Of a stretch of 64,000 nucleotides of DNA, positions 22,948 through 47,487 are shown piece after piece. Positions within the stretch are counted from its first letter, which is position 1, and each line of letters starts with the position of its first letter. This DNA comes from Closterium sp. NIES-65. Its lineage: Eukaryota > Streptophyta > Zygnematophyceae > Desmidiales > Closteriaceae. The stretch covers positions 2,666,501 through 2,730,500 of the forward strand of contig CANXME010002001.1 of assembly GCA_948144175.1 (NCBI GenBank). The letters run 5' to 3'. The position numbers were made by a program, and so were the translations under genes. A model generated the notes under the pieces. That model was not told where the DNA came from. It searched no databases and saw only the letters and a program-made list of their open reading frames with translations.

Positions 22948-22961
22948 ATCACAAAAACCCT
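22948..22961 (+). repeat. left terminal inverted repeat of transposon D
   Basis: ATCACAAAAACCCT; matches the reverse complement of 47474-47487 at 13 of 14 positions. Confidence 0.8.
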
Positions 22962-23301
22962 ATGCCAAGTTTGGACGAATTTTGATTTCGATTGTCTTCG
23001 CGTAAAAAAATCCGGAGCCAATTTGGACCAACGGTTGGAGTCATTTGATAGGAGCTCCGAGACACATCTTGCGACAAGGTTTGGCTCGGTTCCAGTTCCA
23101 ATTTGGCACGCGAGCTTTTCCGGATGACATTCGGGCGCAATCCGTTTTGTTGCAAATTCGTGACCAAATTATTCAGAACTAAATTCTGTTTTTGTTCATT
23201 TTGGATATTGAGGATTTCAAAATTGCATTTATTATTGCGGTTTACAAGAACCATTATTCAGCATTCTAGCAACAAGCAGTCTTAGCACCAGGTGAAATAG
23301 C
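22962..23301. other. left subterminal region of transposon D
   Basis: Non-coding, with several TTTGGA/TTTGGC motifs (22970, 23030, 23080, 23102, and inverted at about 23163). The 12-mer AATTTGGCACGC at 23100 recurs at 47302 near the other end. Repeated short subterminal motifs are where CACTA-type transposase proteins bind; that role here is inferred. Confidence 0.5.
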
Positions 23302-24378
23302 CTACGCACTGGCGAGCCTTGAAAGCACCCGGTGGGCAAGCACGACATCTCCAAGGTCGCCGTCGTCGATGAGGAACTTGTTCGGAAAGACGAACGCACC
23401 CATAACCGGATCGTGGGGAATCCTCCGCTCCACGACAGCAAAATGGATCATCTGTTTGACCTTTTCGCACCACTCCTGGTAGTATGGCCTGTTCTGCTCC
23501 GGCTGGCTACTGATTCGCTTGCGACGCTTATCCTGCAGAAGGGGCCATTCGATCTGCAATGTGGTGTAGGGTTGGGTGGATGGTTTATGAGGAGGGTAGG
23601 TTACGGGTAAATGAGGCAACTGAATGCGGTGATGCAGTCGTCACTATCTACATAACTGCAAAGGCCTAATCGACTAGGGTTTTAGCTGAAGTACAGGCAA
23701 GGGGTTAAGGGGATGAGGCATGGGGGTACAAACATATATCTACATCCTTACCGAAAACAGGCCCCATGCCACCATGCGGCTCTTGAACTTGGTGAACACC
23801 GCCCCGCCCCTCTTGAAGGAGAGTTTGAACGCATAAGCGAACAAGGGGTTGCTGAAGGGTGTCCCGGTGGCCTTGTCAAAGTGCCAGTTGAGGGCCCACT
23901 GTTCTGCTTTTTGGCAGGGAGGGTACGGGTTGGAAAGGGTTTTGTAGAGAAATCAAATGGGGGGATGAGAGTCAGGGTGAGCCACATCGCACGGTGATAT
24001 GTAGCTGCCAAGGGGCATATGGTAGGGCATATTGTGTTTTCGAGTTGCACTGCACATACCATCTCTGTACTCGGCTAGGAGTTGATCGTCGTCGAACCAC
24101 GTCGTTAGGTGTAGCTCAGTGGGCAGGCTATCCACGAGATGGCTGTAATCGGCAAGGCCCATGCCGGTGTATGCTGCTGGCCTGAGGGTGGAGTTGATAG
24201 TTGACCTTGTTGAGGACAGCTGGTGGTTGAAGACTCCCATGGTTGACTTGTCATTGTGCAACCACAGCAGCTTCATTGCCTCGAGCCCTTCTGCAGACAA
24301 GTGGACAAAGAACGCTTCGAACACTTCCTCCGGTGCAGGGTAGTACTGTATTTTCTCCGGCGGGTTCAGAAACATGAG
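23302..24378 (-). pseudogene. gene E, C-terminal exons (unrecognised protein)
   Basis: Three exons with matching phases on the minus strand. 24378-24060 runs from LMFLNPPEKIQYY to LLAEYRD and ends at a GTATGT donor. 23906-23752 runs from AEQWALNWHFDKATG to MVAWGLFS and ends at a GTAAGG donor. The last starts at 23553 (or 23619) with IEWPLLQDKRRKR and ends at TAG 23304-23302. The 1/2 and 0/0 phase fits, clean acceptors and protein-like composition argue for a real gene. No family recognised. It lies just inside the left TIR of D and reads towards it. It is the downstream part of the gene whose other exons lie at 28230-30030 and 40916-41131; the link across the satellite is by phase and orientation only. 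Confidence 0.55.
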
Positions 24379-24517
24379 CTGAGAGCACACTAAGTAGGCT
24401 TTGTTTTGCGCAGGGGTGTAAGGTATACAACACGACATGGAAGAGAGAAACCAGCAGTTATGAGGGTGGCCGCGTGACCATGGGATGGTGACTAGCAACA
24501 CTGTTTGAAATTGCCAC

Positions 24518-27500
24518 GTCACACCCTGCGCCATCCGACACGTCCACCAACAACCCGGCCCACTTGCCACGTCACACCCCCCTACCACAAGCCACGTCAC
24601 CCCCCACCCACCTGACACGCCTCGCTTCGTCATGCGCAGTGGTCACGTGTACCATTTCTAACCGCCACGTCATCCCCAACCCTCACCTTCTGCCACGTCA
24701 CACCCACTTGCATCCGCCATGTCATCCCCAACCCTCACGTTCCGCCACGTCACACCCTCCTTGTCCGCCACGTCCACCAACCAGCCCCACGTGCCACGTC
24801 ACACCCTCCTGCATCCGCCACGTCCACCAACAACCAGCCCCACGTGCCACGTCACACCCTCCCACCCCATGCCACGTCACCCCCCACCCACCTGACACGC
24901 GTCGCCTCGTCACGCGCCGCTCCCGTGTACCATTCCAAACCGCCACGTCAACCCCAACCCTCACATTCTGCCACGTCACACCCTTTTGCATCCGCCAACA
25001 ACCCGCCCTACTTGCCACGTCACACCCCCCACCAAGAGCCTCGTCACCCCCCACCCACCTGAAACGCCTCGCGCCGTCATGCGCCGCTCACGTGTACCCT
25101 TTTAGGGTGCCACGTCATCCCCAACCCTCACCTTCCGCCACGTCACACCCATATGCATCTGTCATGTCATCCCCCACCCTCACCTTCCGCCACGTCACAC
25201 CCTCCTGCATCCGCCACGTCCACCAACCAGCCCCAAGTGCCACGTCACATCCTCCTTGTCCGCCACGTCCACCAACCAGCCCCACGTGCCACGTCACACC
25301 CTCCTGCATCCGCCACGTCCACCAACAACCAGCCCCACGTGCCACGTCACACCCTCCCACCCCATGCCACGTCACCCCCCACCCACCTGACACGCGTCGC
25401 CTCGTCACGCGCCGCTCCCGTGTACCATTCCAAACCGCCACGTCAACCCCAACCCTCACATTCTGCCACGTCACACCCTTTTGCATCCGCCAACAACCCG
25501 CCCTACTTGCCACGTCACACCCCCCACCAAGAGCCTCGTCACCCCCCACCCACCTGAAACGCCTCGCGCCGTCATGCGCCGCTCACGTGTACCCTTTTAG
25601 GGTGCCACGTCATCCCCAACCCTCACCTTCCGCCACGTCACACCCATATGCATCTGTCATGTCATCCCCCACCCTCACCTTCCGCCACGTCACACCCTCC
25701 TGCATCCGCCACGTCCACCAACCAGCCCCAAGTGCCACGTCACACCCTCCTTGTCCGCCACGTCCACCAACCAGCCCCACGTGCCACGTCACACCCTCCT
25801 GCATCCGCCACGTCCACCAACAACCAGCCCCACGTGCCACGTCACACCCTCCCACCCCATGCCACGTCACCCCCCACCCACCTGACACGCGTCGCCTCGT
25901 CACGCGCCGCTCCCGTGTACCATTCCAAACCGCCACGTCAGCCCCGACCCTCACATTCTGCCACGTCACACCCCCCAGCATCCGCCAACAACCCACCCTA
26001 CTTGCCATGCTACACCCCCCACCAAGAGCCACGTCACCCCCCACCCACCTGAGACGCCTCGCTTCGTCATGCGCCGCTCACGTGTACCCTTTTAGGGTGC
26101 CACGTCATCCCCAACCCTCACCTTCCGCCACGTCACACCCATCTTCATCTGTCACGTCATCCCCCACCCTCACCTTCCGCCACGTCACACCCTTCTGCAT
26201 CCGCCACGTCCACCAACCAGCCCCAAGTGCCACGTCACACCCTCCTTGTCCGCCACGTCCACCAACCAGCCCCACGTGCCACGTCACACCCTCCTGCATC
26301 CGCCACGTCCACCAACAACCAGCCCCACGTGCCACGTCACACCCTCCCACCCCATGCCACGTCACCCCCCACCCACCTGACACGCGTCGCCTCGTCACGC
26401 GCCGCTCCCGTGTACCATTCCAAACCGCCACGTCAGCCCCGACCCTCACATTCTGCCACGTCACACCCCCCAGCATCCGCCAACAACCCGCCCTACTTGC
26501 CATGTTACACCCCCCACCAAGAGCCACGTCACCCCCCACCCACCTGAGACGCCTCGCTTCGTCATGCGCCGCTCACGTGTACCCTTTTAGGGTGCCACGT
26601 CATCCCCAACCCTCACCTTCCGCCACGTCACACCCATCTGCATCTGTCACGTCATCCCCCACCCTCACCTTCCGCCGCGTCACACCCTTCTGCATCCGCC
26701 ACGTCCACCAACCAGCCCCAAGTGCCACGTCACACCCTCCTTGTCCGCCACGTCCACCAACAACCAGCCCCACGTGCCACGTCACACCCTCCCACCCCAT
26801 GCCACGTCACCCCCCACCCACCTGACACGCGTCGCCTCGTCACGCGCCGCTCCCGTGTACCATTCCAAACCGCCACGTCAACCCCAACCCTCACATTCTG
26901 CCACGTCACACCCTTTTGCATCCGCCAACAACCCGCCCTACTTGCCACGTCACACCCCCCACCAAGAGCCTCGTCACCCCCCACCCACCTGAAACGCCTC
27001 GCGCCGTCATGCGCCGCTCACGTGTACCCTTTTAGGGTGCCACGTCATCCCCAACCCTCACCTTCCGCCACGTCACACCCATCTGCATCTGTCACGTCAT
27101 CCCCCACCCTCACCTTCCGCCACGTCACACCCTTCTGCATCCGCCACGTCCACCAACCAGCCCCAAGTGCCACGTCACACCCTCCTTGTCCGCCACGTCC
27201 ACCAACCAGCCCCACGTGCCACGTCACACCCTCCTGCATCCGCCACGTCCACCAACAACCAGCCCCACGTGCCACGTCACACCCTCCCACCCCATGCCAC
27301 GTCACCCCCCACCCACCTGACACGCGTCGCCTCGTCACGCGCCGCTCCCGTGTACCATTCCAAACCGCCACGTCAGCCCCGACCCTCACATTCTGCCACG
27401 TCACACCCCCCAGCATCCGCCAACAACCCGCCCTACTTGCCATGTTACACCCCCCACCAAGAGCCACGTCACCCCCCACCCACCTGAGACGCCTCGCTTC

Positions 27501-28205
27501 GTCATGCGCCGCTCACGTGTACCCTTTTAGGGTGCCACGTCATCCCCAACCCTCACCTTCCGCCACGTCACACCCATCTGCATCTGTCACGTCATCCCCC
27601 ACCCTCACCTTCCGCCACGTCACACCCTTCTGCATCCGCCACGTCCACCAACCAGCCCCAGGTGCCACGTCACACCCTCCTGCATCCGCCACGTCCACCA
27701 ACAACCAGCCCCACGTGCCACGTCACACCCTCCCACCCCATGCCACGTCACCCCCCACCCACCTGACACGCGTCGCCTCGTCACGCGCCGCTCCCGTGTA
27801 CCATTCCAAACCGCCACGTCAGCCCCAACCCCCACATTCTGCCACGTCACACCCCCCAGCATCCGCCAACAACCCGCCCTACTTGCCACGTCACACCCCC
27901 CACCAAGAGCCTCGTCACCCCCCACCCACCTGAAACGCCTCGCGCCGTCATGCGGCACTCCCTTGCACCCTTTCACACTGCCACGTCATATCCCAACCCT
28001 CACCTTTTGCCACGTCACACCCAACCCGCATCCGCCATGTCCACCAACAACCCGCGCCACTTGCCACGTCACACCCACCCACCCCATGCCACGTCACCCC
28101 CCACCCACCTGATACGCGTCGCCTCGTCACGCGCCGCTCCCGTGTTCCCTTCGAAACCGCCACGTCAGCCCCAACCCCGCCCTTGTTGCCACGTCAACCC
28201 CAACC
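24518..28205. repeat. GCCACGTCA-rich satellite, 495-bp higher-order repeat
   Basis: About 3.7 kb made almost wholly of short units ending in GCCACGTCA or CGCCACGTCC. A landmark (CCCTTTTAGGG) recurs at 25104, 25599, 26094, 26589, 27034 and 27529, giving a 495-bp period with one 445-bp unit. The long open frames on both strands (up to 753 codons on +) are by-products of the period and lack any homology. On the minus strand the core reads TGACGTGGC, an ACGT-core element of the kind bound by plant bZIP factors. It lies between two gene E exons and so is probably intronic. Confidence 0.9.
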
Positions 28206-28229
28206 CTCCCCATGTGGCTCGCCACATAC

Positions 28230-30030
28230 CGGGAATGGGTTTGTCTCTTGCAACACTAGCACTCGTGCCTTGTCCACGGCACTCATCGGCGGCGGGGTAC
28301 CAGCCATAGGCAGGGCTGCCGACCCGCCGGCATAGCTGGCAGGTACTCCACGACGCAGGCCGAGCTGTGCAAACATGGCGTACATCTCAGACCGCAGCGC
28401 CTGGAACTCCTCCCGTGTAACAAAATGCTCGTGCTCCGCACTTTCACCTAGGGCACCCATGAGCGGAGGAAAAGGGTGTGAAGAATCCCCCCTCTAGCCA
28501 AGGGGATCAACGTCTTCTGCAGCAGTCCCGTGTGCCCTCACACTATCACGCTGGCGGGAAAAGGGGAGCTCAGGGAAGGAATTGGCATAACTGCCTGCCT
28601 GATGCCCGCGTGAAGGATCGGCGAGAGGGGAGACCGCCCTGCCCCGGACAGGAGAAGCGTGGAGTTGCCGAAATTGGTACGAGGGTGAGGCGAGTGGGGA
28701 CTGCGTGACGGGGGCGGGTGGAGGGGATTCGGATTCCTCTCCTCTTGGCGCGCCTGGTGCCGTCGCAGCGACTATGCTCGGGCCGGCCCATGGCGTGTAG
28801 TACCTTGGTGCTCTGGAGGAGAGCGGTGTAACACTCGCTCTTCCGGCAGCCTTCGTTAGATGCATTGGTTGCACGCTTACGGGCGGCCCAATGCCTGGAA
28901 CGCGAGGGGCTGAGATGTAGAGGGAGCCGGAAAAAAAAAATTAGAGTCGATCGGTTTCAAGGCGGGGCCAGACATGCATGCATATTCAGAAAGGTTTGAA
29001 TCTAGATCGGGTTCAGGGTTGTACTGGTTTGAGACAAGAGGGTTTACCTTGCTTGGCAGATTCGTCGACCTTCTCCTTCCCTGCATGGGAGAAACAATGT
29101 GAAAAGGGTGTTTTTTGGCACGGTTTAGCAGATGGTTCAACACGTCACGCCAATTTTATTGGACACAATGCTCACCTTTCTGCTGTCCCTTCGGTTTTGG
29201 GGCAGCCTGCGCCTTCTCGTTGCCACCTTTCCGCGGGGTGCTTTGGCGGACGCTGCGACGTTTACCGGCAGGTTCTTTCTAGCTGGTACCCACTGGAACC
29301 CCTTTGGCGCGGCCACCCTTTCCTCCTCCATCCCCTTTTGCTCCCTGGCTCCCTTGCTTTTTACCAACCCCTTCACTTTCGACCTTCACCTTACGCGCCT
29401 TCGGTTTGCCCGATGCTTCGCCACGCGCAACGTCAACTGCCCCGCGTTTTCGGGAAGGGCAAGTCTGCCCCCCCTCCTTCCCTGTACCACTCACCCGTCT
29501 GCCACGCCCGCCCCGTCCCTTCAATGGCGCCACATCCTCCTCCTCCTCCTCCTCCTCCTCCTCCTCCTCCTCCTCCTCCTCCTCCTACTCCTCCTCCTCC
29601 TCCTCCTCCTCCTCCTCCTCCTCCTCCTCCTCCTCCTCCTCCTCCTCCTCCTCCTCATCCACATCCTCCTCCTTGTCGTCACCCTGCTCCTCCTCCTCCT
29701 CCTCCTCCTCCTCCTCCTCCTCCTCCTCCTCCTCCTCCTCCTCCTCCTCCTCCTCTGCCTCCTCCTCCTCCTCCTCCTCCTCCTCCTCCTCCTCCTCCTC
29801 CTCCTCCTCCTCCTCCTCCTCCTCTGCCTCCTCCTCCTCCTCCTCCTCCTCCTCCTCCTCCTCCTCCTCCTCCTCCTCCTCCTCCTCCTCCTCCTCTTCG
29901 TCCTCCCCGCCATCATTCTCATCTTTTTCATCCTCCCCAACATCCGCGTCATCCTCCTCCGCTTCCTCTTCATCCTCCTCTCCCTCCGCATCCTCCTCCT
30001 CATCCTCCTCCTCCTCCGCATCACCGGGGT
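28230..30030 (-). pseudogene. gene E, central exons: acidic block then basic block
   Basis: Minus strand. 30030-29176 encodes GDAEEEEDEEEDAEGEEDEE, a long Glu/Asp tract of roughly 160 residues, then a Lys/Arg/Gly-rich tail (APLKGRGGRGRRVSGTGK, KRGAVDVARGEASGKPKARK). A TAG at 29281-29279 interrupts it before KEPAGKRRSVRQSTPRKGG, after which a GTGAGC donor closes the exon. A 33-nt exon (29080-29048, GKEKVDESAKQ) and a longer exon (28909-28230, APRVPGIGPP to QETNPFP) follow in matching phase 1/1/0. The last contains a TAG at 28496 and a SEMYAMFAQLGLRR stretch that may be helical. Charge pattern suggests a nucleic-acid or chromatin interactor, but no domain is recognised. Confidence 0.6.
29529..29897. 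repeat. CTC/GAG trinucleotide tract encoding poly-Glu
   Basis: Near-perfect (TCC)n over about 370 bp with a few interruptions (29585, 29655-29690, 29757, 29824). In the gene E frame on the minus strand it reads GAG, and its flanks keep a Glu/Asp-rich coding character. The long Ser, Leu and Pro frames on + are shadows. Confidence 0.85.
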
Positions 30031-30055
30031 CTTCATGGCCAGTTCAGATGCAGGA

Positions 30056-30086
<31 letters not shown>

Positions 30087-30137
30087 AGGCTAGACAAGCA
30101 AGAGCAAGCGTATATATATGTAACAGTACAAGCAAGG

Positions 30138-32441
30138 TCAAGAGGTGAGCAAGTGAGGCAAGACAGGCACAAGACTCAGCTGAGTATAGAAGCGCTGATG
30201 ATCATAAGGCGCAAGTGCCTTGGTGAAGATATCAGCAGTGTTGGCCTTAGAGGCCACGTACGCAAAACGCAGCTGACCACGCTGCTGTAGCTCACGAGCA
30301 AGGAAGTAGCAAAGAGCAATGTGCTTCGTTCTGTGCTCCAGTCTCAGCTCTCGACACAAGGCCAGCATGGCCTTGTTGTCTACGTACAGCACTGGAGGAG
30401 AACGAGGCGGCTCTCCGAGGTCAGTCAGCAGGTAGGTGAGCCAGCGAAGCTCCAGTGCAGCCATGGCCCCGGCGTAGATCTCAGCCTCACAACTGGAGCC
30501 GAGAACAGAAGACGAGCGGGTAGCCCGCCACGAAACAGAGCCGGAACCGAGGCTGAAGGTGTAACCCTGTGACGACCGCTGCGTAGCCTGGTCGTCAGCC
30601 CAAGAAGCGTCTGCGTGCCCAGTGAGGGCCACTGGACTCTGCCTTCCAAGCACAAGCCCCATGCCCGACGTACTGCACAAGTAGCGCAACACCCTCTTCG
30701 CTGCAGCCATGTGCTCTTGTCGGTGTCTCCCAGGAGCAACATAGCGTGCCAAGATGCTAAGAGGATATGCAAGGTCAGGTCGTGTGCAGGTCATCAGGTA
30801 CATGAGGCAGCCAACAAGCTCTGGGTACGGGCCACTCGACTCTACGGACTCATCCGAAGGCAGAGCTGAGAGCGAGTGGCAAGTAGGCAGAGGAGTGGCC
30901 TGAGGCGAGGAGTACGTGAAGCCGAAGCGCTGAAGGACCTGCTGCACCATGTGTGACTGAGTCAGGGTAATGGTGCGGCGTGCTCTGTCCCGGGTGATCT
31001 GCAAGCCAAGGTAGCTGCGCAGTTCACCCAGGTCTGTGCACGTGTGTCTCTTCTGCAGCTCGGACTTCACGTGGGCGAGTCCAGTAGTGTCAGCTGTGGC
31101 AAAGACCAAGTCGTCGACGTACACGAGGATGTAGAACGACGGCAAAGAAGTGTCGGTGCGCAAAAACAGCGACGGGTCGGCAGTAGAGGGAGCAAACCCA
31201 AGAGCCGCAAGCGTAGTCCTCAGTGTGTCGTGCCACTCACTTGGTGCCTCGCGAAGACCGTAGACTGGCCGCCGGAGGCTCCACTGGGTGCCAGGAGGAA
31301 AAGACGTAGGTGCACGGACCAGTATCCCCACCCCGCTGGCGTGCAGCGTACCACTCACGGAGCTGCTGAGGGGGGGGGATGTCACGAGTGCGCTGCTGCT
31401 GCTGGCGCTGACCACCACCGGAGCGGACCCTCTGCGCAGCGCCACCCCGACCAGCTCCACCTCCTCCGCCACCGCCTCCTCCACCGCCGCCACCTCCGCC
31501 ACCTCCGCTCCCACCGCCATCGCCGCCGCCTCCGCCTCCACTGCCGCCACCGACACCTCCACCCCCGCCACCACCCCCACTGCCACCCCCACTCCCTCCG
31601 CCGCCTCCACCGCCGCCTCCACCGCTCCCGCTAGTGCCTGCAGCGCCCCTGCCCTCCTTGCCCTTGCCAGGGCGGCGTCTCCCGCTAGGGGTAGACGCCG
31701 CACCGACTGACTCAAGCCCAACGAGGTCGGCCGCAGCAGCAGAGGCAACAGAGGGCAAAAGGGGGGAGGGGGAACACCCCTCAAAGATGGGGGTGCGAGG
31801 GTCACCACGAGAGGCTCCTACAGCGACTATGCTCTTCTCCACTGCTAGGAGGGCCTTCTCGAGGAGGTCATCGGTGAGGGTGGTGGGGCAAACTGAGAGG
31901 AACTGGTCCCTGACTACGCGAAGGGAGTCAGGGAGGCGGGTGACTATGTAGTAGAGAGTGATGTACATGGGGGGGGGGGGTTCTTGGCGCAGAACTCAGC
32001 AGGAAGCGCAGCGCGGTAGCGAGTGTCACTAGTGCGGAGGTGCGTAATGAGGTCAGCGACTGTGGGAAAGGCAGCAAGGTCAGGGAAGAGGTACGGTAGC
32101 ATGAGGCGGCTCAGTGCAGCAGTGGCAGGGGAGGAGTAGCGTGCAACTACAGCGTCGTACAAGGTCTGAGCACTCTTGTACTGGCTAAAGTGCGCACGCT
32201 CAGAGGTAGGCAGGTGGCGACGCACAGCAAGACGTGCAGCAGCATCGCGTGTGGCCCACTGTGAGCGAACAGTGGCGTCAGCATCAGTAGCAGGGGCAGG
32301 AGAGGCACCAGAGGTGAGGTCAAAGAGGGAGAGACCGTCTGCCCTATCGCACTGTAGGAAAAGCTGCAGGTCATCTACCCAGACATCAAAGTCAATGGCC
32401 CGACCCTCAGCGTCAAAAGCGAGGACACTAGGGGTAGCCAT
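30138..32441 (-). pseudogene. copia 6 gag fused to RT-RNase H
   Basis: Gag starts at 32441 (MATPSVLAFDAEG). A 12-base homopolymer (31969-31980) breaks the frame before MYITLYYIV. The Gly-rich hinge spans about 31440-31640. Near 31305 the gag CTYV motif is joined to RT at FPPGTQWSL, deleting protease, integrase and the first half of RT (roughly 3.3 kb by comparison with copia 3). From there to 30138 RT (YVDDLVF) and RNase H (HADASWADD, YVDNKAMLAL) stay open, in frame with an alternative reading of the gag hinge. This gives a chance 556-codon chimeric frame. Confidence 0.85.
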
Positions 32442-32499
32442 GACAGCAGTAGACTAGTAGCGCGAACAGTGGGGTAAGGGCAGTGCAGTGACAGAGGCG

Positions 32500-33350
32500 C
32501 TGCTCTTACCGGACAGGGCGGCTCGGGCGGCTTGGCGGCTCGGCAGCTCGGTAGGAAATGCAGCTCGGCGGCTCGGCAGGAACTGCAGCTCGGCGGCTTG
32601 GCTATTCTGCGGCTCGGGCGGCTCGGGCGGCTTGGGCGGCTCAGGCGTCTCGGGCATCTTGGGCGGCTCGGCGGGACGGCGGCTCGGGCGGCTCGGGCGG
32701 CTCAGGCGGCTCGGGCGGCTCAGGTGGCGCTGTGGCTCGGGCGGCTCGGGTGGCGCTGGCGGCTCGGCAGCAGCTCGGCAGGGCCGCGTGAAGGCGAGGT
32801 CGGGGCCAGGAAGGGCGTGCGATGGGACCAGCAGGGGCTGGGCCGCGGCCGGGAAGGGGCGGCGCCGGGGCCGTAGGGTAGGCGACGGGGCCAGCAGAGA
32901 TTGGGCCGGGTCGGGAAGGGCGGCGTCGGGGCCGAGAAAGGGCGGCGCCTGAGCCGGGAAGGGCAGAGACGGGGCCAGCTGGGGCGGGGCCGGGTCGCGA
33001 AGGGCGGCATCGGGGCCGGGAAGGGTAGCGCCGGGGCCGCAAGGAGGCGACGGGGCCGCAGGTAGGCGACGGGGCCGCAGGTAGGCGACGGGGTCGCAGG
33101 TAGGCGACGGGGCCGCAGGTAGGCGTCGGTGCCGCAGGTAGGCGACGGGGCCAGCAAGGGCGGGGCCGGGTTGGGAAGGGCGGCGCGAGGGCCGCGGGGT
33201 AGGCGACGGGGCCGAAAGGGCGGCGAATCGGGGCCGGGAAGGGCGGCTCAAGGGCCGCGGGGTAGGCGATGGGGCCGCTAGGGCGGCGGATCGGGGCCGT
33301 CAAGGGCGGCGCGGCACAGCCGCTAGGGCGGCGCAACACAGTGAAAAAAG
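32500..33350 (-). repeat. GC-rich leader repeats of copia 6
   Basis: Arrays of GGCGGCTCGG (32515-32780) and of GCAGGTAGGCGACGGGGCC (32870-33300). Same architecture as the other leaders but different unit counts. Confidence 0.75.
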
Positions 33351-33453
33351 GGGGAGCGCGACTCGGGCAAGGGTTGAGCGCGCTGCGGGCAGGAAAAAAA
33401 TCGAATCGGTGGGTTTTAAGAACAGTTCCCATGAGGGAACCTGCTCGATACCA

Positions 33454-33585
33454 TGAGAAAACTGAAACGAGAAGGAATGAACTATGAAAGAGTTGGGTAC
33501 AAGTACTAACCCTAATTGGGTTGTACCCCTTATGGGCTACCCCACTATAGCCTACACAATATGCATAAGCTATAATGTTCTGACA
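33454..33585 (-). repeat. LTR shared by copia 6 (5') and copia 7 (3')
   Basis: 132 bp. The primer-binding site of copia 6 lies at 33440-33453, and the polypurine tract of copia 7 (complement of CACCCCCATAGGCAAAG) adjoins the other side at 33586. Confidence 0.85.
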
Positions 33586-33747
33586 CACCCCCATAGGCAA
33601 AGTGGGGGAGAACAAGGGGTCACAAGACCAGTCAAGCAAAGCAAAGCAAAGCAAGCTCAGGGTGGATCACAAAGTCACCACACATTCCGAGCACAAGTTC
33701 AAGGCCACAAGGCCAGTTCACATGCAGGAGTACATATATATAAAAGG

Positions 33748-36700: not shown

Positions 36701-39700
36701 CTCGACCGCGTCTACATGGGACACACCTGGAGGGGAAGGACCCTGAGGGGGGAGGGGGTCTACCAGGGGGGGGACCTGGCACAAGGAAGAGCGGTGGCGG
36801 GGGGAGAGAAGGAGTGCGGTAGGGGAAGAGGCGGTAGTAGGGGACCGACTCGTCAAACGTGACGTCCTGGGAGGACAGAACATAACGAGAGGTGGGGTGG
36901 TAGAACTGCCACCCTGGCGCGTCAGGAGGGAAGCCAAGGAAGACGCAAGGAGCAGCACGAGGGGACAGCTTGTCCGCAGACAAGCCGCGGACAAACGCCC
37001 GAGATCCCCAGACACGGAACGCAGACGCATCGCCTACCTTCCCCGTCCACAGCAAAGCTGGGGAGGTCTCCGGCATGGAGACCCTCGGGTGAAGGCTGAT
37101 CTGATGCGCCGCGTACCGAACTGCAAACGGCCACAGAAAATGGGGGGCAGCCGCATGCATCATGGACGTACGGGCGACATCCATGACCATGCCAATGCGG
37201 CGCTCAGCAATCCCATTTTGCTGTGGAGAGTCCGGAAGCGTAAAGGTATGGCGGATGCCAAGTGCACGACAGTAGGCTCGCAGAAGGCCAGAGGAGAACT
37301 CTCCGCCTCTGTCAGAGTGCAGACGCAGAACAGGAAAGTCCGAGCCGAAGCTCCTCCTGAGCTAGAGACGAGCTGCGCGGATCCAGTCGATCAACACCTC
37401 AGTGACATCACCCTTGCTGCGCAGGGGGAAGACTGTGGTGTAACGCGAGTAGTCCTCAACCACCAGCAGGAAGTAGCGCTCGTGACCCTGTCCACGGACG
37501 CGGTCCAGGCCCCACCCGTCCATGTGAAGCGTCTGCAGCGGGGCCTCTGTCGAGGGAAACTGAGAGGAGTGAGGGGCAGCCTGCAGCCGCCCCTCGACAC
37601 AGGGGATGCAGGTGGGGCCAGGCCCCGGAGGAAGGGGAGGGAGGGACCGGGGAAGACCAAAGACAAGGACACGAGAGGCCATGCCTTGGAGACGAGGCAG
37701 GGAGGGGTGGTCAAGGCGGTGGTGCCAGAGGAGAGTCTCGTGAGACAGGAGGCGACACGAGCAGGGGGCAGACTCAGGACCAGACCTGGACGCTGCAGCA
37801 AACACCTGACCCGACGCAGCTAGCTGACCAGACGAAGGGACAGGAGGAGACTCAGTGGTCAGGGTGTACAGGCTCGACCCCGGCCGACGCGTAAACGTGG
37901 CTAGGTGCCGGCCTGTGCAAGCGTCCGAGCAGTGGGTCACCCGCTGACTCGCAGGAGTAAACTGGTGAACCCCCGCATCCTGTAGGTCAGCACCACTCAC
38001 CAAGTTCGTAGAGAACGAGGGGAGGTAAAGAGGGGGCCGCCGGACACGGGAGGACAATGGAGAAGTGAGAAAGGATAGGACCCCCAAAGGGGTCTGCCAG
38101 GGAGACTGCAACGGGCCGACCAAGCGGCGTGAGTGTGGTGCGGTCTCGAAAGAAGGAGCGAGAAGCCCCGGAGTCAAGTGTAAAGGTGAGGGAGGCCGAA
38201 GCCGACCCGGTCCCTGCAAGCGCAGACTCACCAGCACCTGAGGACGCAGACGCACTGGCACCTAGAGCAGCAGCCTCACTGGCACCTAGAGCAGCAGCCT
38301 CACCAGTACCTAGAGCAGCAGTCTCAATGCCTGGGTCGGGCGGGAAACACCGGTAACAGTCACCCTCATCACTAATATACACAGCATACATGGCAGAAAG
38401 GATAGCATCAAAGTCAAGATCATAGATGGCAACTCCCGCCCTAGACAGCTCGCCCCAGCGAGGGATCTCTGTGGCCTCGGGGAACTGGTGACGCCACGCG
38501 TCCGTAAGGCGGCCAAAGCAGCGCTGGGTGGGGTGCGCACCCCCACACTGCTCACCCGCACGGTCGCCAGTGCGCAGGACGTAGGTGCACGGACCAAAGC
38601 CCCCACCCCGCTGGCGTGTAGTGTACCTCTCACGGAGCTGCTGAGGGGACAAGGTCTCACGACCGCGCTGCTGCTGCTGGCGCAGACCACCACCGGAGCC
38701 ACTCCGCTGCGTAGACCCGCGACCAGCTCCACCGCCACCCCCGCCGCCTCCGCCGCCTCCGCCGCCTCCGCTACTACCGCCGCCTCCGCCGCCTCCTCCA
38801 CCGCCACCACCTCCGCCACCTCCGCTACCACCGCCACCGCCGCCGCCGCCTCCGCCTCCACTGGCGCCACCGACACCTCCGCCCACACCTCCACTCCCAC
38901 CGCCACCCCCACTCCCCCCGCCGCCTCCACCTCCACCTCCACCGCCCCCGCTCGCTCCTCCAGTGCCCCTGCCCCCCTTGCCCTTGCCAGAGCGGCGTCT
39001 CCCACTAGGGGCAGACGCCGCACCGACCGACTCAAGACCAAGCAGGTCGGCCGCAGCAGCAGAGGCAACAGAGGGCAGGGGGGGGGAGGGGGAACACCCC
39101 TCAAAGATGGGGGTGCGCGGGTCACCACGAGAGGCCCCTACAGCGACTATGCTCTTCTCGGCCGCTAGGAGGGACTTCTCGAGGAGGTCAACAGTGAGAG
39201 TGGTGGGACAGACTGAGAGGAAGTGGTCCCTGACTACGCGAAGGGAGTTAGGGAGGCGAGTGACTAAGTAGTAGAGAGTGATGTACATGGGGGGGGGGGG
39301 TTCTTGGCGCAAAAGTCAGCAGGAAGCGCAGCGCGGTAGCGAGTGTCACTAGTGCGGAGGTGCGTAATGAGGTCAGCGACTGTGGGAAAGGCAGCAAGGT
39401 CAGGGAAGAGGTACGGTAGCATGAGGCGGCTCAGTGCAGCAGTGGCAGGGGAAGAGTAGCGCGCAACTACAGCGTCGTACAAGGTATGAGCACTCTTGTA
39501 CTGACTAAAGTGCGCGCGCTCAGTGGTAGGCAGGTGGCGACGCACAGCAAGACGTGCAGCAGCGTCGCGCGTGGCCCACTGGGAGCGAACAGTGGCGTCA
39601 GCATCAGCAACAAGGGCAGGAGAGGCGCCAGAGGTGAGGTCAAAGAGAGAGAGACCGTCTGCCCTATCACACTGTAAGAACAGCTGCAGGTCGTCGACCC

Positions 39701-39761
39701 AGACGTCAAAGTCAATGGCTCGACCCTCAGCGTCAAAAGCGAGGACACTGGGGGTAGCCAT
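33748..39761 (-). pseudogene. copia 7 gag-pol polyprotein, disrupted
   Basis: Gag starts at 39761 (MATPSVLAFDAEG). A 12-base homopolymer (39289-39300) shifts frame before MYITLYYLV. The Gly-rich hinge is at about 38700-38950, the zinc knuckle at about 38520-38590, and the protease LDSGASRSFF near 38150. The gag-pre-integrase region and integrase (FLLVVEDY, HSDRGGEF, QQNGIAERR) run 38000-36780 with a TAG at 37364. A variable linker with GSAPPG repeats (antisense reading at 36420-36665) precedes RT (35270-34190, YVDDLVF intact), which ends in a TAG at 34185. RNase H resumes to 33748. In VVEDY an acidic residue replaces the first D of VVDDY. Confidence 0.9.
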
Positions 39762-39839
39762 GACAACAGTAGACCAGCAGTGCAAGCAGTAGGGAAAGGG
39801 CAGTGCAGTGACAGAGGTGTTGTGCTCACCGGACAGGGC

Positions 39840-40510
39840 TGCTCGGGCGGCTCGGCGGTAGGGCGGCTCGGCGGCTCGGCGGCTCGGCTGCTGGGCGGCT
39901 CGGCGGCTTGACTGCTGGGCGGTAGGGCGGCTCGGCGGCCTGGCGGCTCGGCTGCTGGGTGGCTCGGCGGCTCTACTGCTGGGCGGCTCGGCTGCACGGC
40001 GGCTCGGCTGGTGGGCGGCTGGGCGGCTCGGCTGTAGGGCGGCTCGGCGGTTCGGCTGCTCTGCTGCAGGGCGGCGCGGCGGTCGGCGGCTCGGCTGGGT
40101 GAGGCGGCTCGGGCGGTTCGGGTGGCGGGCGGCGCTGCAGCAGTTGACGGGGCCACAAGGGAGGGCGGCGGGGCCGCAGGTGAGGGCGACGGGGCCGCAT
40201 TTGAGGGTGGCGGGGCCGCAAGTGAGGACGACGGGGCCGCAACTGAGGGCGGCGGGGCCGCAAGTGAGGGCGACGGGGCCGCAACTGAGGGCGGCGGGGC
40301 CGCAAGTGAAGGCGGCAGGGTCGCAGGTGAGGGCGGCGACGGGCCGCAACTGAGGGAGGCGACGGGGCCGCAACTGAGGGCGGCGACGGGGCCGCAACTG
40401 AGGGCGGCGGGGCCGCAAGTGAGGGCGGCGGGGCCGCAAGTAAGGGCGGCGACGGGCCGCTTAGGGTGGCGACGAGCCGTGAAGGGCGGCGACGGGCCGA
40501 GTAAGGGGGT
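39840..40510 (-). repeat. GC-rich leader repeats of copia 7
   Basis: GGCGGCTCGGCTGCTGG-type units (39840-40100), then GGGGCCGCAAGTGAGGGCG-type units (40150-40480). Confidence 0.75.
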
Positions 40511-40638
40511 TGCTAGGGCGGCTCGACGAAGGCAGAGAGGGGAGCGCGACTCGGGGAGCGCGCTCCGGGCAGGAAAAAAAAACTTTTGATGTGGTGGGCC
40601 CTAGGCACAGTTCCCACGAGGGACCCTGCTCGATACCA

Positions 40639-40770
40639 TGAGAAAGTTAGAACGAGAATGAATGAACTATGAAAGAGTTCGGTACAAGTACTAACCCTAA
40701 TTGGGTTGTACCCCTTATGGGCTACCCCACTATAGCCTACACAATATGCATAAGCTATAATGTTCTGACA
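40639..40770 (-). repeat. 5' LTR of copia 7
   Basis: 132 bp, TG/CA ends, primer-binding site at 40625-40638. Confidence 0.85.
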
Positions 40771-40915
40771 CCTGCTCGATACCATGAGAAAACTGAAACG
40801 AGAATGAATGAACTATGAAAGAGTTGGGTACAAGTACTAACCCTAATTGGGTTGTACCCCTTATGGGCTACCCCACTACAGCCTACACAAATGCATAAGC
40901 TATAATGTTATGACA
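40771..40915 (-). repeat. extra LTR plus 14-nt primer-binding site, upstream of copia 7
   Basis: A second complete LTR (40785-40915, 131 bp) is separated from the LTR of copia 7 by exactly the 14-nt primer-binding site (40771-40784). Its outer edge abuts gene E at ATCCC; ACCCC at 30030-30026 on the far side is a plausible TSD with one mismatch. Confidence 0.8.
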
Positions 40916-41131
40916 GGGATCGCCTCCGTGATTTCCCTCCGTCGCCGATCCCTCCATCTCCGCCGACGGGAGTGCAAGACTCGCGCTCCCTCGCCCTGGA
41001 TCTTCGTTGCCGCCAGTGGTGCCGTTTCGAAAGGGTTCTGCAACAGAATCCCACGATGGGATTATCGACGGTCTATCACTGTAAGGGGTTTCGAAAACCG
41101 CCACTTCAACTAAATCTGTCATAGTAGCCAC
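40916..41131 (-). pseudogene. gene E, first exon (72 codons)
   Basis: Starts with MATMTDLVEVAVFETPYSD and stays open for 72 codons to the copia insertion (…EGNHGGDP). The frame on the other side of the copia block resumes as GDAEEEED at 30025, so removing the block and one TSD gives one open frame. The start codon is the first ATG of the frame, 2.1 kb from the divergent transposase start. Function unknown. Confidence 0.55.
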
Positions 41132-41650
41132 TATGCTTCGCGCTAAAGTGTGTCAAGGGAACGAGCAGCGTCAAAGTGTTGGTTTAGGGAGTGACGGAAG
41201 CAGGTGGGTGGGACACGAGGGTGGTTGGGGTGGGTTGCGAGACTAGAGAGAGTAATGTAACCCTATCAGGCTATATTGGACGGTGTACGTGTAGCCACCC
41301 TAGCATAAACCCACCTACCGCTCGATCTCAGCCGCTCAATGGCTGAAGTACCTCTTGGCTGATGACTGTGTTGCGGGGGGAATCGTTTGAGATGCGTCGG
41401 CCAATCACGGTTGCCAACGCATAAATCTCTAGATTTTATTCAAACATACAACAATGCATTTCATCAAACTCTAAGTTGCAAATGGTTTACCACGGGGTTG
41501 GGGTAAGTTAATCGGTGATTCTTACGTCACACATACAACGACCGTCCAGAATTATTACTTGTGACAGAGGTACTGTGCACTTTTAGGCTTTGCCACAATG
41601 GTTTAGGGCCAGCGGACGACATTCTAACACGATTATCAATAGTAACAAAC
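41132..41650. other. upstream region of gene E, no gene seen
   Basis: AT-richer spacer between the gene E start and the 178-bp array. It presumably holds the gene E promoter; no clear TATA box or motif chosen. Confidence 0.4.
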
Positions 41651-42480
41651 GTGAATCCGTTGTGGTATGGTGATGGATTGTCATCCATTCTTGCACAGAC
41701 ATTAAACAAGGTGCTTAGAAGGAGTGGTATGAAGCACAAGCCCAATGCACAAGCGTAGATGCGTTATTGACAGCCATGGTTAGACTGTGCGACGATGCAG
41801 CATTCAGGCCTGCGGGTTGCGCGACATGGTGAATCCGTTGTGGTATGGTGTTGCATTGGCATCCATTCTTGCACAGACATTAAACAAGGTGCTTAGAAGG
41901 AGTTGTATGAAGCACAGGTCCAATGCACAAGCGTAGATGCGTTATCGACAGCCATGGTTAGACTGTGCGACGATGTAGCGTTCAGGCCTGCGGGTTGCGC
42001 GACATGGTGAATCCGTTGTGGTATGGTGTTGCATTGGCATCCATTCTTGCACAGACATTAAACAAGGTGCTTAGAAGGAGTTGTATGAAGCACAGGCCCA
42101 ACGCACAAGCGTAGATGCGTTATCGACAGCCATGGTTAGACTGTGCGACGATGCAGCGTTCAGGCCTGCATTATGCGCGACATGGTGAATCCGTTGTGGT
42201 ATGGTGTTGCATTGGCATCCATTCTTGCACAGACATTAAACAAGGTGCTTAGAAGGAGTTGTATGAAGCACAGGTCCGACGCACAAGCGTAGATGCGTTA
42301 TCGACCGCCATGGTTAGACTGTGCGACGATGCAGCTTTTAGGCCTGCGGGTTGCACGACATGGTGAATCCGTTGTGGTATGGTGTTGCATTGTCATCCAA
42401 CATTGCATGGACATTGAAACCGTTGTGTTATTGTACGACATTGTCATCCATTCTTGCATATTCATTCAGCACGGTCCCTA
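41651..42480. repeat. 178-bp tandem repeat, about 4.6 copies
   Basis: GTGAATCCGTTGTGG recurs at 41651, 41829, 42007, 42185 and 42363, exactly 178 bp apart. The units differ at scattered positions; the last diverges after about 70 bp. It lies between the divergent genes of transposon D and has no coding frame of interest. Confidence 0.9.
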
Positions 42481-43223
42481 GAGGTACACTACACCTCGAG
42501 AGAAGACACGCTATAGGTATTCGCTCCACGCAACAATCATACGTTAGGGCATGGAGTTATTGGGTACTTCCCGTATCGTTATCAAGTAAGGGTTGTTCAA
42601 CATCAGTCCTAAGGATATTAATGTTTACTAGTTATGAATAACTTGAGTGTCTTGTTAAGTTCTAATTGTACATTTGCATTTCCATGTTTGTTTGAAGCCT
42701 CTTGAGCTCACCTACGTGATTCTGATTTCCCCCCTATATCGATTCGCGACACAATCACAGATCCAAACGGATCTCTTCCCGCTCTTCCTCATCCCCCTCG
42801 ACTCTCACGCACGGTTCCTAAACACAAGTTCTTGATTCAATAGGCACGTCCTTCTCACCGTGCTCGCGACGCACACACACGACCGTGAGACTTAAGATCC
42901 TCCGCATTCTCCTCTGCTCACGTCGTGGTCACTCTAAACGGGGGCGACACACCTTGTAGGGAAGACGGCCCGTGAGGTGGGCGGTCTGTATCGTGCCTGG
43001 TAACGACCACGTGGCTCGACATTGTTAGCCAGTCCTAAACATTAGCGCCAATGTCAAGTGCCAGTCGTGCAGTGATACAAGCCGCCCACCACAGTGCGCG
43101 CATTGGCGATGATCATGTAGCTGTCACAGGCTTCTTGAACGGAGTACTTAATGCGTTCACAAGCTTCATCACGGCTAGTAGCTTCATAGGCGATTTCTCG
43201 ACTCTACAACGGATCCGTAACAC
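42481..43223. other. upstream region of the transposase gene, no gene seen
   Basis: Unique sequence. A 95-codon frame at 43051-43338 overlaps the transposase start in another frame and has no support. Confidence 0.4.
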
Positions 43224-46200
43224 ATGGGCTCTTTACCAGGCGTCGTCTGCGAGTTCTGCAACAGATGGTTCCGTAACGCCCAAGTTTATGGCGGTCATAA
43301 GTCACGGCGGACCCCTTGCCAAGGACTATCCGCCGTAGCAAGGCCGACGCGATCTGCACCGACCGCCGGTCTTCACGCTCTGCTATTCGTCCACGACATT
43401 CTGTCGGACGCTCCACCCGCTCCCGGTTCACCTACAGCGTCTAACGCATCCAACGCCGTCAGTGTGAGCGGTCCTCCACGCGTGCCTGAAGCTCATGTTG
43501 ACGAAACTCCCAACGACGTGAACGAGGGGCCTCCTGAAGATGAACATCAACCACAACCAGGATCTCTTGCGGCTGACACGAGTGACCATCCTAAGAGCCG
43601 GCCCGAAGGGAGTCATGCCGCGCCGCCAACAATCATCTCCGGACAGAGCAATGCCACGCCCCTCAATCCGCTCGCGTTGAAGCTGCTGCATTTCGTTCGG
43701 CGTGTGAATGGCGGAATGGGAATGGCCGAGGTTGACATCAACGGCCTGCTTCAGCTAGTCGTAGAGCCCGGCCTTGCGCCTCTTGTGATCTCGGAGCTCC
43801 GGAACTGTAAGGATCTGGAGCGGTTCGAGATGGAGCGTTTTGCAGGGCTCAATCGCGGATGGTCGGTGGCAACCTTCGAGATTGATGGTCATCCACCACA
43901 GTGCTTGCTCTTTCAGAACTCAGCACAGGTAAGCCGACTTTGCATTCAAGGCCATGAAATGATGATGAGGCACACAGGGTTTGCATGTACGTAGTTATCC
44001 TTGTATTAACCGTACACCCACCTTCACTGCCACTAACCATGCCTCTCCTCTCACCTGCCTTCGCCACCGTACACCAGGCATTCGCTGAAATGTTTGGACA
44101 TCCCAACAACGCGCCCGGCTTCAAGCTCAAGGCGCGTGTTGATGAGGACCCTGACGTAGGCGGCCGTCGCTATACCACGCCTGAAACAGGAACGTGGTGG
44201 AACGATGCTCAAGTAAGGAAAGATCACGTTGCCACCCCAAACCCAATCCTTCCTCATGCCTCCATCGCTGCACTGATCTGTCAAGAGCATCTTGAGCCCT
44301 AAACCGTGTGTCCCTTGCCGCTTTGTCGTGCACTGCAGGAACACTTCGGTTGGTCCGAATTTGTGGGGGGGATCATCTTATATTCGGATGTGATGCACAT
44401 GAGCATCAACGGCCGGAAGAAGGCGTGGCCGCTCATGATGACGCTGGCCAACATCTCCCAGGCCAAGCGATGGGGGAAAGCCAGGCACACACTACTTGCC
44501 CTCCTTCCTATCCCCCCGTCTGCAATGTCTGCCGTGGAGAAGGTGATGCTCTTCCAGCGTTGCGTCATCTACGTGCTGCAGCCGCTTCTTGATGGCATCG
44601 CCAGGTCCGTACTCGGTTTGCATCTTGCTAACACATCATCTCACCACCTGCATGGTATGCAAACCCTCTCTGTATGTAGCATGGCCCTTTGCCCCTCGTC
44701 GTTCCTCCCTAAAAGCCGTAACCCGAATTCCTGTTGCCCCTCTACATGTTCCTTGCAGCGGGTTCCGTCTCAGGGACCCTTTCGGTGATTGGCAAACCGT
44801 GCGGCCCTTGCTGTACGCCTGGGTGTGCGACTACCCCCAGAGCGGCAAGATCAGTTGCACACTCTCGCATGGATCGCGGATGCCGTGCAGCATCTGCTAT
44901 GCTGCATAGGTGAGGTCACATGCCATCTGCACGCATTCAAATACATTCTCGTTTGTGGGTCGCCTGATAGAACCCACATAGCTACCACCCTTACCTTTTC
45001 TATCCCATCCCTCACCCCCGTGCTACAAGAGGAGCATCTGAGTGCTGTCAAGGCACGAAACACGCCGCGCACGCCTGAACAGCAGCAATGGATCGTTAAC
45101 GAGGCGGCTGGGACAACAACTAGCCAGGCTGACCCGTGCAAGGCCTAATCTACCTACCCTGTTGAGGTGAGTGACCTGTTTCCCCGGCCCATGAGTAGTC
45201 TATGCTCTCGCCCGCCCCGTCATGAATTGCCAGATGTGCTCTGCCCCATTGAACTCACCCCACTTGTGGTTTAGGTTAGCTATCCACTCTCACGTACATC
45301 TCTCCTCCATTCCCCACCACATCCCCATTTCCAGTGCGTGCTCTGGAAGTGGGATGTGGTAGGGACCGCGTGGGGCAATCCCTACCTCGTGGTGATGCCT
45401 GACAACAGGCACCAGGCGGACTCGGGCATCATGAGCCACATTGTGGCTGTCGTGCGCAAGATGAAGAAGCGGCGTGTGAAGCAGATAAACAGGTCAGTGT
45501 TTTGGGGATTGGATTCGTTGCTCTTCGTCACATTTACTCAAACCATAAGTTCTGTCCTATTACTGACATGTTTCTGCCCTTTTGCCACCGCTGAACTGAT
45601 GTGTATGGGCAAGCGCCTGTCTCTCATTCGTGACCGCACGCGCCTGAATCACATGCGCCTGCCGGAGAGCGCCTACTTCGAGACCGGAGCATGTGTGGCG
45701 GCCTATGAGCATAGGGCCGTCATGCAGGTATGAACCCTCCATTCCCTGTTGCTTGTCCTGGCCTAAACCCTCAAGCAGTCTGCTCATGCTGCCATTGTTT
45801 GTCCAAACTCCTCACACCATCTGTGCTCACCCTCCCCTTTGCTGCTATCCACATTCTTTGCAGGTCATGGTGTTTGTTTTTGCAGGCCTGCTTCGCCAGC
45901 CCCAGATGGATGCCGTTTGTGCCTATCTTGGCTCGTACATCCTGTGCTCCCAGCCTCAGGGGCACACTGAGCGGTCCCTCCGGGAGCTGAAGAAGATGAC
46001 CTCTCGGTAATAATACCATGCATGTAAACCCCCGTGCATGGGATGAATGCTTGGCTACTGTAAATGTGCTCTTGTAGTAGGCAATCTTGTGAGGATGTTT
46101 GGTGCTAAACTTTGATAGGAAAGGATCAGGAATAGAAAAACCATATGAATAAGTAGACTCTGTGATTGCATGTGTTGTCATCTCCCACTCCCATCAGGCT

Positions 46201-47261
46201 TGTTGAGCAGTTGCAGGCTGCGTTTCCAAAGCAGCCATCCTCTTGGTGCCTTGTGAAAACACATCTCATGTCGCACTACGTTGACTCCATACGTCGCGCG
46301 GGTCATGTGACTGAATTCAGCACCAACATGTTCGAGCACTTGCACGGACCGTTGGTAAAGAGGATCTACCGTCGGTCCAACAAGCGCAATGTAGATGGGC
46401 AGATCATGAAGTTCCATGCTAGGCGCATTCCGGATGTGGTGCCGGTGGATGATCCTGCTGGCCGGGACACCGCCATGCAGCAGGTAAATCTGTTTAGTGC
46501 TTGAATTGCATGGATATGAATGCAGAATGTAATAATATCAATAGCATATGTTGGCAGGCGATTGAGACCGACACACGGACGCTCATCAAGGAGTCATACT
46601 TCCTCCCTGTGGAGTTACCACAAGAACCCACCTCCACCAACTGGTTTGCAAGGAAGTGGGCCAAGCAACACCCTCGTGCCCGAGCTGCCCTCAAGGATGC
46701 GCTTATGCGTTATGCAGGATGCGTCACCAAGATTCGAGTAAGTAGTTGCAAGTTTATGCAATCAACCATCATTTGGCTGGCTCGTATCATACATGACTAA
46801 CATCAACTGTTATGCAGGCCCATGCATCACTGGAAATCCCTGCAGCAGACAACGCTAGCTTTTCAAGAGTTTCTCACTTCGTTCGAGCGACCCCTGACTA
46901 TTTTGAGAGGCCATGGTAATCGGATGTTGCAGTGGAGGGTGTAAGGTATGGTCGGAGAGAGGAGTGGTATGCAAGGTTGCTTCTGTTGTTCCATACAAAA
47001 ATACGTGGAGAGAGGGAGGAGCTGGCTTACGTTAGATATTGGAATGCAAGCGGAGAGGATACAGCAACAGGATGCCTTCGCCTCAAGTGGACGACAGGAA
47101 TGTACGCGTACTCGGTGATTCCGATTGAGGCGCTGCTCCGCCACGTCCATGTGGTGAAGGCATTCCACCTAGACAGTACCTATCTCCTTAATAAGTATCA
47201 AATGGGATGCATTTATCTTGTAATAAAACGGCCAGCATATTTTCAAGCATACACATTTTAG
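43224..47261 (+). CDS. Plavaka/CACTA-like transposase, multi-exon, two in-frame stops
   Basis: Exons inferred from GT-AG borders and phase: 43224-43928, 44078-44212, 44339-44604, 44759-44909, about 45030-45170 (unresolved), 45335-45727 (may hold an intron), 45864-46006, 46198-46483, 46558-46737, 46818-47261. The N-terminus has a C2HC finger (CEFCNRWF, then GGHKSRRTPC), as in Plavaka proteins. Exon 3 has the core signature YSDVMHMSINGRKKAWPL then MTLANI, with the first catalytic Asp expected in YSD. Next comes WVCDYPQSGKISC and a Cys pair, then EHRAVMQVMVF, then THLMSHYVDSIRRAG and MFEHLHGPLVKRIYRRSNKR. The C-terminal domain has ELAYVRYW and SVIPIEALLRHVHVVKAF. In-frame stops are TAG 44907-44909 and TAA 46917-46919, so the copy is probably dead. 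Family call by motif recognition, not by search. Confidence 0.7.
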
Positions 47262-47473
47262 GGAAGTCAAAGCTTAAAAAACCAATTACAAAATCACAAC
47301 AAATTTGGCACGCTTCAAATAAACGGCAATGTACCGGAGTCGCGGATTCGATCTAGACTTTGACAAACAAACGCGGTCCGATTTCATTCCGTGATTGATC
47401 GCGATTTGGCTTCGGAACTTCGCCAACCAAAACACCTGAACTGTACCCCCCTTCGAACCCCCTTCAAAAACCA
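47262..47473. other. right subterminal region of transposon D
   Basis: Non-coding; contains AATTTGGCACGC at 47302, further TTTGG motifs (47403, inverted near 47428) and an internal ATCACAACAAA resembling the TIR at 47294. Confidence 0.5.
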
Positions 47474-47487
47474 AGGTTTTTTGTGAT
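47474..47487 (-). repeat. right terminal inverted repeat of transposon D
   Basis: Reads ATCACAAAAAACCT on the minus strand, 13 of 14 identical to the left end. Confidence 0.8.

Follow-up and report, generated by a model that had tools for sequence, protein, structure and literature searches.

Plavaka DNA transposons have been described in fungi (PMC12730594), in Amoebidium (PMC11244446) and in the green alga Auxenochlorella (PMC12633428). According to the passages of Kojima 2025 on PlavakaB (PMC12730594), these elements are found in Agaricomycotina fungi, have CATCA..TGATG ends and duplications of 2 or 3 bp, and in some cases carry a TET/JBP gene. The Plavaka giant repeats of Amoebidium reach up to 50 kb and contain clusters of intron-poor genes, many of which encode tyrosine recombinases (PMC11244446). 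The locus described here lies in Closterium sp. NIES-65, in a stretch of 64,000 nucleotides that was analysed as a whole (hereafter, the window). Auxenochlorella is a chlorophyte, while Closterium is a streptophyte and belongs to the algae most closely related to land plants.

We consider it nearly certain that the insert in the window belongs to a multi-copy Plavaka-family DNA transposon, of which it is a broken copy; it interrupts a Ty3-type retroelement, where it likely arrived by transposase-catalysed cut-and-paste. This identification builds on the observed ends, target duplication, empty site, further copies, Plavaka domain and a Copia junction present at two target sites, together with two predicted gene models. 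The initial annotation did not recognise the insert as a described element in green algae. At the family level this view is unsupported, since Plavaka is a described family and EnSpm-Plavaka is reported from another green alga, Auxenochlorella (PMC12633428). Because the ends, the duplication length and the transposase all fit Plavaka (PlavakaB), we assign the insert to a known family rather than to an unrecognised architecture. It resembles fungal PlavakaB, as portrayed in the sections of Kojima 2025 on that group (PMC12730594), in its CATCA..TGATG ends, 2-bp duplication and Plavaka transposase domain, but differs in its desmid host, its unrelated acidic companion gene and its internal tandem arrays. 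Like the Amoebidium repeats (PMC11244446), it is a large repeat with a Plavaka transposase; here, however, nested Copia-type sequence accounts for the additional length. No Plavaka in Closterium was found in the literature library searched, and an entry may exist in Repbase or another database; PMC10407611 contains "transposon" 0 times and "transposable element" 3 times. For a Closterium Plavaka family, the analysis fixes the ends to the base and gives the length of the target duplication, an empty site and predicted genes (Table 1).

Table 1. Coordinates of the Plavaka element and its predicted features in the window
Feature	Position	Strand	Remark
Target duplication AT, left side	22945..22946	.	
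Plavaka element, window copy	22947..47488	.	24,542 bp including nested Copia-type sequence
Left terminal inverted repeat CATCACAAAAACCCT	22947..22961	+	
Gene 2 exon 6	23302..23553	-	last exon, stop at end
Gene 2 exon 5	23752..23903	-	
Gene 2 exon 4	24060..24405	-	
495-bp tandem array (167-bp sub-unit)	24543..28206	.	in predicted gene 2 intron
Gene 2 exon 3	28230..28894	-	
Gene 2 exon 2	29048..29080	-	
Gene 2 exon 1, 3' part	29176..30036	-	glutamate-run (TCC)n stretch; cut by Copia block
Nested Copia-type block	30037..40915	-	two RVT_2 stretches, gag_pre-integrase
178-bp tandem array	41651..42399	.	between the two genes
Transposase exon 1	43224..43928	+	weak N-terminal C2H2-like finger match
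Transposase exon 2	44078..44212	+	
Transposase exon 3	44339..44604	+	Plavaka domain, SDxTH-type motif
Transposase exon 4	44759..44909	+	CDYPES-type and CSIC motifs
Transposase exon 5	45032..45166	+	
Transposase exon 6	45335..45492	+	
Transposase exon 7	45613..45727	+	acceptor AG lost in window copy
Transposase exon 8	45864..46006	+	
Transposase exon 9	46198..46483	+	HLMSH and FEHLH motifs
Transposase exon 10	46558..46737	+	
Transposase exon 11	46818..47207	+	window copy runs through majority stop to 47258
Right terminal inverted repeat, reading CATCACAAAAAACCT inwards	47474..47488	-	
Target duplication AT, right side	47489..47490	.	

The initial annotation had proposed a transposon with exactly fixed terminal inverted repeats, ATCACAAAAACCCT and ATCACAAAAAACCT, one at 22948 and the other inverted and ending at 47487. 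The core common to both repeats, ATCACAAAAA, has no further occurrence within the window. The ends proved real and multi-copy, with boundaries that were one base short on each side. A C stands directly outside the proposed left end in 31/31 copies (the window, 10 copies fetched over 20 kb and 20 short flanks). Therefore, one base must be added on each side, which gives an element at 22947-47488 with the termini CATCACAAAAA..TTTTTGTGATG and an AT duplication. In the copies read, the element starts with CATCACAAAA and ends with TGATG; one of the 31 left ends, c1652, and its twin C773 have CATCACAAAATCCC further in. Left and right ends were paired for 17 copies by the coordinates of the end matches. 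The CATCA..TGATG ends of PlavakaB are present throughout, with C before ATCA at all of the 31 left ends and TGATG at the right end of all 17 paired copies, where C430 and C1690 are each one base off the common TTTTTTGTGATG. The termini are not the TGT..ACA of PlavakaA. Among the 10 copies fetched over 20 kb, an intact right end was found within the stretch in four; c1642 has an altered right end, with CA on both sides by eye, and is outside the paired-copy counts, and c947 is truncated. No right end was found within the 20-kb stretch for c1690, c1844, c1761 and c1740, that of c1690 lying farther out.

After merging copies with identical flanks (window/C1690, c1819/c2388, c1652/C773 and C1175/C365), the 17 paired copies represent 13 sites. 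The same 2 bp occur on both sides in 16/17 paired copies and at 12/13 distinct sites, in line with the 2 or 3 bp of PlavakaB. In the exception, C430, the two flanks read TG and AA, perhaps because this copy is recombinant or because its ends were wrongly paired. The GATC that stands on both sides of the window copy, named in the initial annotation as a possible target duplication beside AT, is a chance neighbourhood of AT. Were it a true 4-bp duplication, it could mark a new superfamily of two-gene TIR transposon; but in the copies only the C on the left and the G on the right recur, the flanks differ while the next 2 bp match, and the transposase is Plavaka. The flanks of the paired copies and the Plavaka domain rule out both the GATC duplication and the new superfamily, to which we give next to no probability. 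CACTA elements usually have two genes, and the insert could also be read as a classical CACTA/EnSpm element with 3-bp duplications, CAC ends and two genes. Plavaka and EnSpm transposases are indeed similar, as noted in the relevant part of Kojima 2025 (PMC12730594); however, a 3-bp match was present at just 1/13 sites, and Pfam shows Plavaka and no other transposase, which makes a classical CACTA/EnSpm element very unlikely.

Genome-wide searches with 132 bases of the left end and 144 bases of the right end each returned at least 40 matches, one of which was the window itself. The best 40 of 197 candidates covered the full left query at 97-100% identity, and the best 40 of 193 covered at least 143 of the 144 bases of the right query, with at least 142 bases aligned, at 96-100%, so that other copies bounded by the same repeats, which the initial annotation suggested looking for, do exist. 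The empty site, also put forward as a check, was recovered as well: the joined flanks gave at least 40 matches (the best 40 of 1876 candidates, 97-98% over at least 122/123 bases), all 40 scored matches were positive, and BLAST alignments at base level were gapless at the junction in 6/6 loci, with a single AT. When the flanks are joined with one AT, the reverse-transcriptase frame is continuous, in agreement with the claim that excision restores the codons. It could be argued that the locus is an assembly artefact, because the region is repeat-rich and five couples of copies have identical flanks; yet contig C1690 has both junctions with a different interior and 12/13 sites behave alike, and we find such an artefact scarcely credible. 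Identical flanks on different contigs, observed for L039/L051 in addition to the four merged couples, are the pattern expected from segmental duplication. Another copy, L048 (C461:837361-837460), is surrounded by what by eye is a 178-bp unit, which would make it a Plavaka insertion either in another Plavaka's array or in free satellite.

The retroelement that was split is Ty3-like, with gag, reverse transcriptase, RNase H and integrase domains. The initial annotation called it a chromovirus. A chromodomain had no match in the two downstream frames scanned, of which window:21025-21477:- has SH3_Tf2-1 as its sole domain match and window:21291-22652:- has RNase H and integrase domains. This Ty3-type element is older than the Plavaka insertion that split it.

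The transposase gene was modelled from the majority reading of seven copies. The predicted gene has 11 exons and a single open frame of 887 aa, with GT-AG borders in 10/10 introns, one donor being GTCCGT. Pfam assigned residues 225-502 of the majority reading to Plavaka (PF18759, E 6.4e-32; 111.5 bits against a cut-off of 26.3) and found no other transposase domain; in the window copy's own frame 44303-44785, PF18759 was found at E 2.8e-8. Among 7993 candidates scored, 22 proteins matched, 19 of them from Closterium, and the two best were 89% and 92% identical. Compared by eye with independently made gene models for these two, from Closterium Yama58-4, our model has the same exon joins in 8/10 (P0001) and 7/10 (P0002) cases and differs at 2 and 3 of the 10. 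The CMCT clade is characterised by C(2)C and H(3-4)H between the second D and the last E. The Closterium proteins contain CSIC, HLMSH and FEHLH in this order, and CxxC and HxxxH are readily recognised in them, but not in the three non-Closterium matches that were aligned; the putative catalytic role was read by eye. Structure prediction reached a mean pLDDT of 38, and a search of solved structures gave a single match at E 2.1.

None of the seven copies read has an intact transposase. In the window copy, three internal stops interrupt the frame and a single splice acceptor is lost; c1485, c1652, c1819, c2388 and c1642 have coding lengths that are not a multiple of three and 3 to 24 stops; c947 has two stops, no start codon and some lost splice sites. 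The distance of 220 bp from gene to element end in the initial annotation arose because the majority stop is absent from the window copy, whose frame stays open to 47258. Relative to the majority, the seven copies together have 182 nonsynonymous and 96 synonymous substitutions (a change present in several copies being counted in each), against 1789 and 875 possible transitions; thus, the substitutions look neutral. No active source copy of the subfamily was seen among these seven copies with their neutral-looking substitutions. In the transposase exons of the seven copies, transitions numbered 74 at the 398 CpG positions, compared with 108 at the 2266 remaining positions, i.e., they were about four times commoner per position at CpG, an excess that would fit methylation.

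Plavaka is strongly expanded in the same genome, with several distinct families. PF18759 had at least 133 matches there (1397 first-look candidates, 123 scored). Ten of these loci (L029-L038) form three DNA groups that share the Plavaka domain and, by eye, the N-terminal finger and the SDETH and DYPE motifs with the window transposase, but are just 32-36% identical to it over the main match. Some of them have no stops in the matched domain.

The second gene is predicted on the minus strand, from the middle of the element to 23302, with six exons of compatible phases. Exon 1 carries a glutamate run and is followed by five shorter exons, the predicted product is acidic and glutamate-rich, and the 495-bp array sits in the intron that precedes exon 4. 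The 178-bp array was reported in 9/11 copies, with 3.2 to 15.2 units. The layout proposed in the initial annotation is present: the transposon combines a transposase gene of its own with a second, divergent gene and with internal arrays. The exon marks of gene 2 were derived from the majority of the same 11 copies in which they were then counted: the stop mark occurs in all 11, and the remaining marks are exact in 6-10. In c947, exon 1 forms an open stretch of 1,747 nt whose phase suits the following exon; in both c2388 and c1819 it contains a single stop, and in c1740 it is interrupted. Its start/end pattern was not found in the other seven of the 11 copies, in the window because of the Copia block and a deletion, while some of the others may be a pattern miss.

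Neither Pfam on gene 2 nor NCBIfam on two of its relatives gave a match (none convincing in the latter case), and all 15 protein matches found among the 7995 candidates scored were from Closterium. This could mean that gene 2 lies outside the transposon machinery, as a host gene picked up by the element or an open frame that arose by chance. The recurrence of its stop and exon marks among the copies, the open, in-phase exon 1 of c947 and the similar proteins predicted in other strains, e.g., P0023, speak against this reading, and we judge it quite unlikely. We regard gene 2 as an uncharacterised companion gene, now named and testable, whose product is probably an acidic/basic DNA- or chromatin-binding partner, a role that is a guess.

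Nested Copia-type sequence makes up 10.9 kb (10,878 bp) of the 24.5 kb of the window element, and about 440 bp of Plavaka is missing where the block joins. The block has two reverse-transcriptase stretches, and hence it is probably more than one element; it also resembles sequence elsewhere in the window. The "cargo" of the initial annotation consists of nested Copia-type sequence, and 8/17 paired copies are 11.1-12.6 kb long (11,139; 11,196; 11,626; 11,795; 11,952; 12,079; 12,364; and 12,552 bp, by subtraction of end-match coordinates with the terminal C and G left out). The other nine span 17.5-32.0 kb.

The window copy and C1690 have both Ty3 junctions in common and different interiors. C1690 has extra Copia-type sequence near element position 166 and retains about 348 bp absent from the window. 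Its central Copia block of 3,565 bp matches the opening 3.5 kb of the window's block at 97.5%, and a 145-bp stretch from the end of the block is repeated in the window; thus, either a second element entered the window copy or C1690 lost one by recombination. The left Copia junction occurs in 3/11 copies (window, c1690 and c1761) and the uninterrupted form in 6/11 (c947, c1844, c1740, c1652, c1642 and c1485), while c2388 and c1819 show neither pattern. In c1761, the left flank differs from that of the window and c1690, and just the initial 1.3 kb of that Copia sequence is shared, at 98%. A tree was built from 2.6 kb of the transposon, in which the three Copia carriers form a clade with support 1.000 and are 1.0-1.1% apart, whereas the non-carrier copies are 1.5-3.6% from them, except for the disrupted c1740 at 13%.

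On a plain reading of the window's nested layout, Plavaka split the Ty3 element first and Copia entered the window copy afterwards, and the approximately 7.3 kb of the block that c1690 lacks possibly did arrive later. This order is disfavoured as the likeliest account by the same Copia junction at a different target site in c1761 and by the single clade of the three carriers, and we consider it unlikely. Since the same junction stands at two target sites, in three copies of a single clade, the most economical reading is that a Plavaka already loaded with Copia, and then smaller than the present window copy, probably moved as a unit. Gene conversion could also have spread the shared junction. 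Insertion order can therefore mislead: the junction at two target sites suggests that Copia was aboard before Plavaka moved.

In the transposition process that we envisage, the terminal repeats would be bound by a DDE transposase from an intact relative, perhaps via the N-terminal finger of this enzyme, which would cleave at the terminal C/G and insert the element at a cut with a 2-bp stagger; the gene 2 product might serve as a binding partner. Because Copia-type sequence lies in gene 2 and the transposase contains stops, the window copy would likely need help from other copies to move. It is a doubtful proposal that the desmid Plavaka is a two-gene system with a glutamate-rich partner dedicated to transposition or anti-silencing, and with ends that mobilise Copia-loaded composites. 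If true, a DNA transposon would be a carrier for retroelements.

Outside the element, more Copia-type (RVT_2) sequence lies at 5-18 kb and 50-54 kb of the window, and these stretches and the nested block are 83-93% alike in long matches. A 28-bp tandem array of 8.4 units occupies window positions 62584-62824.
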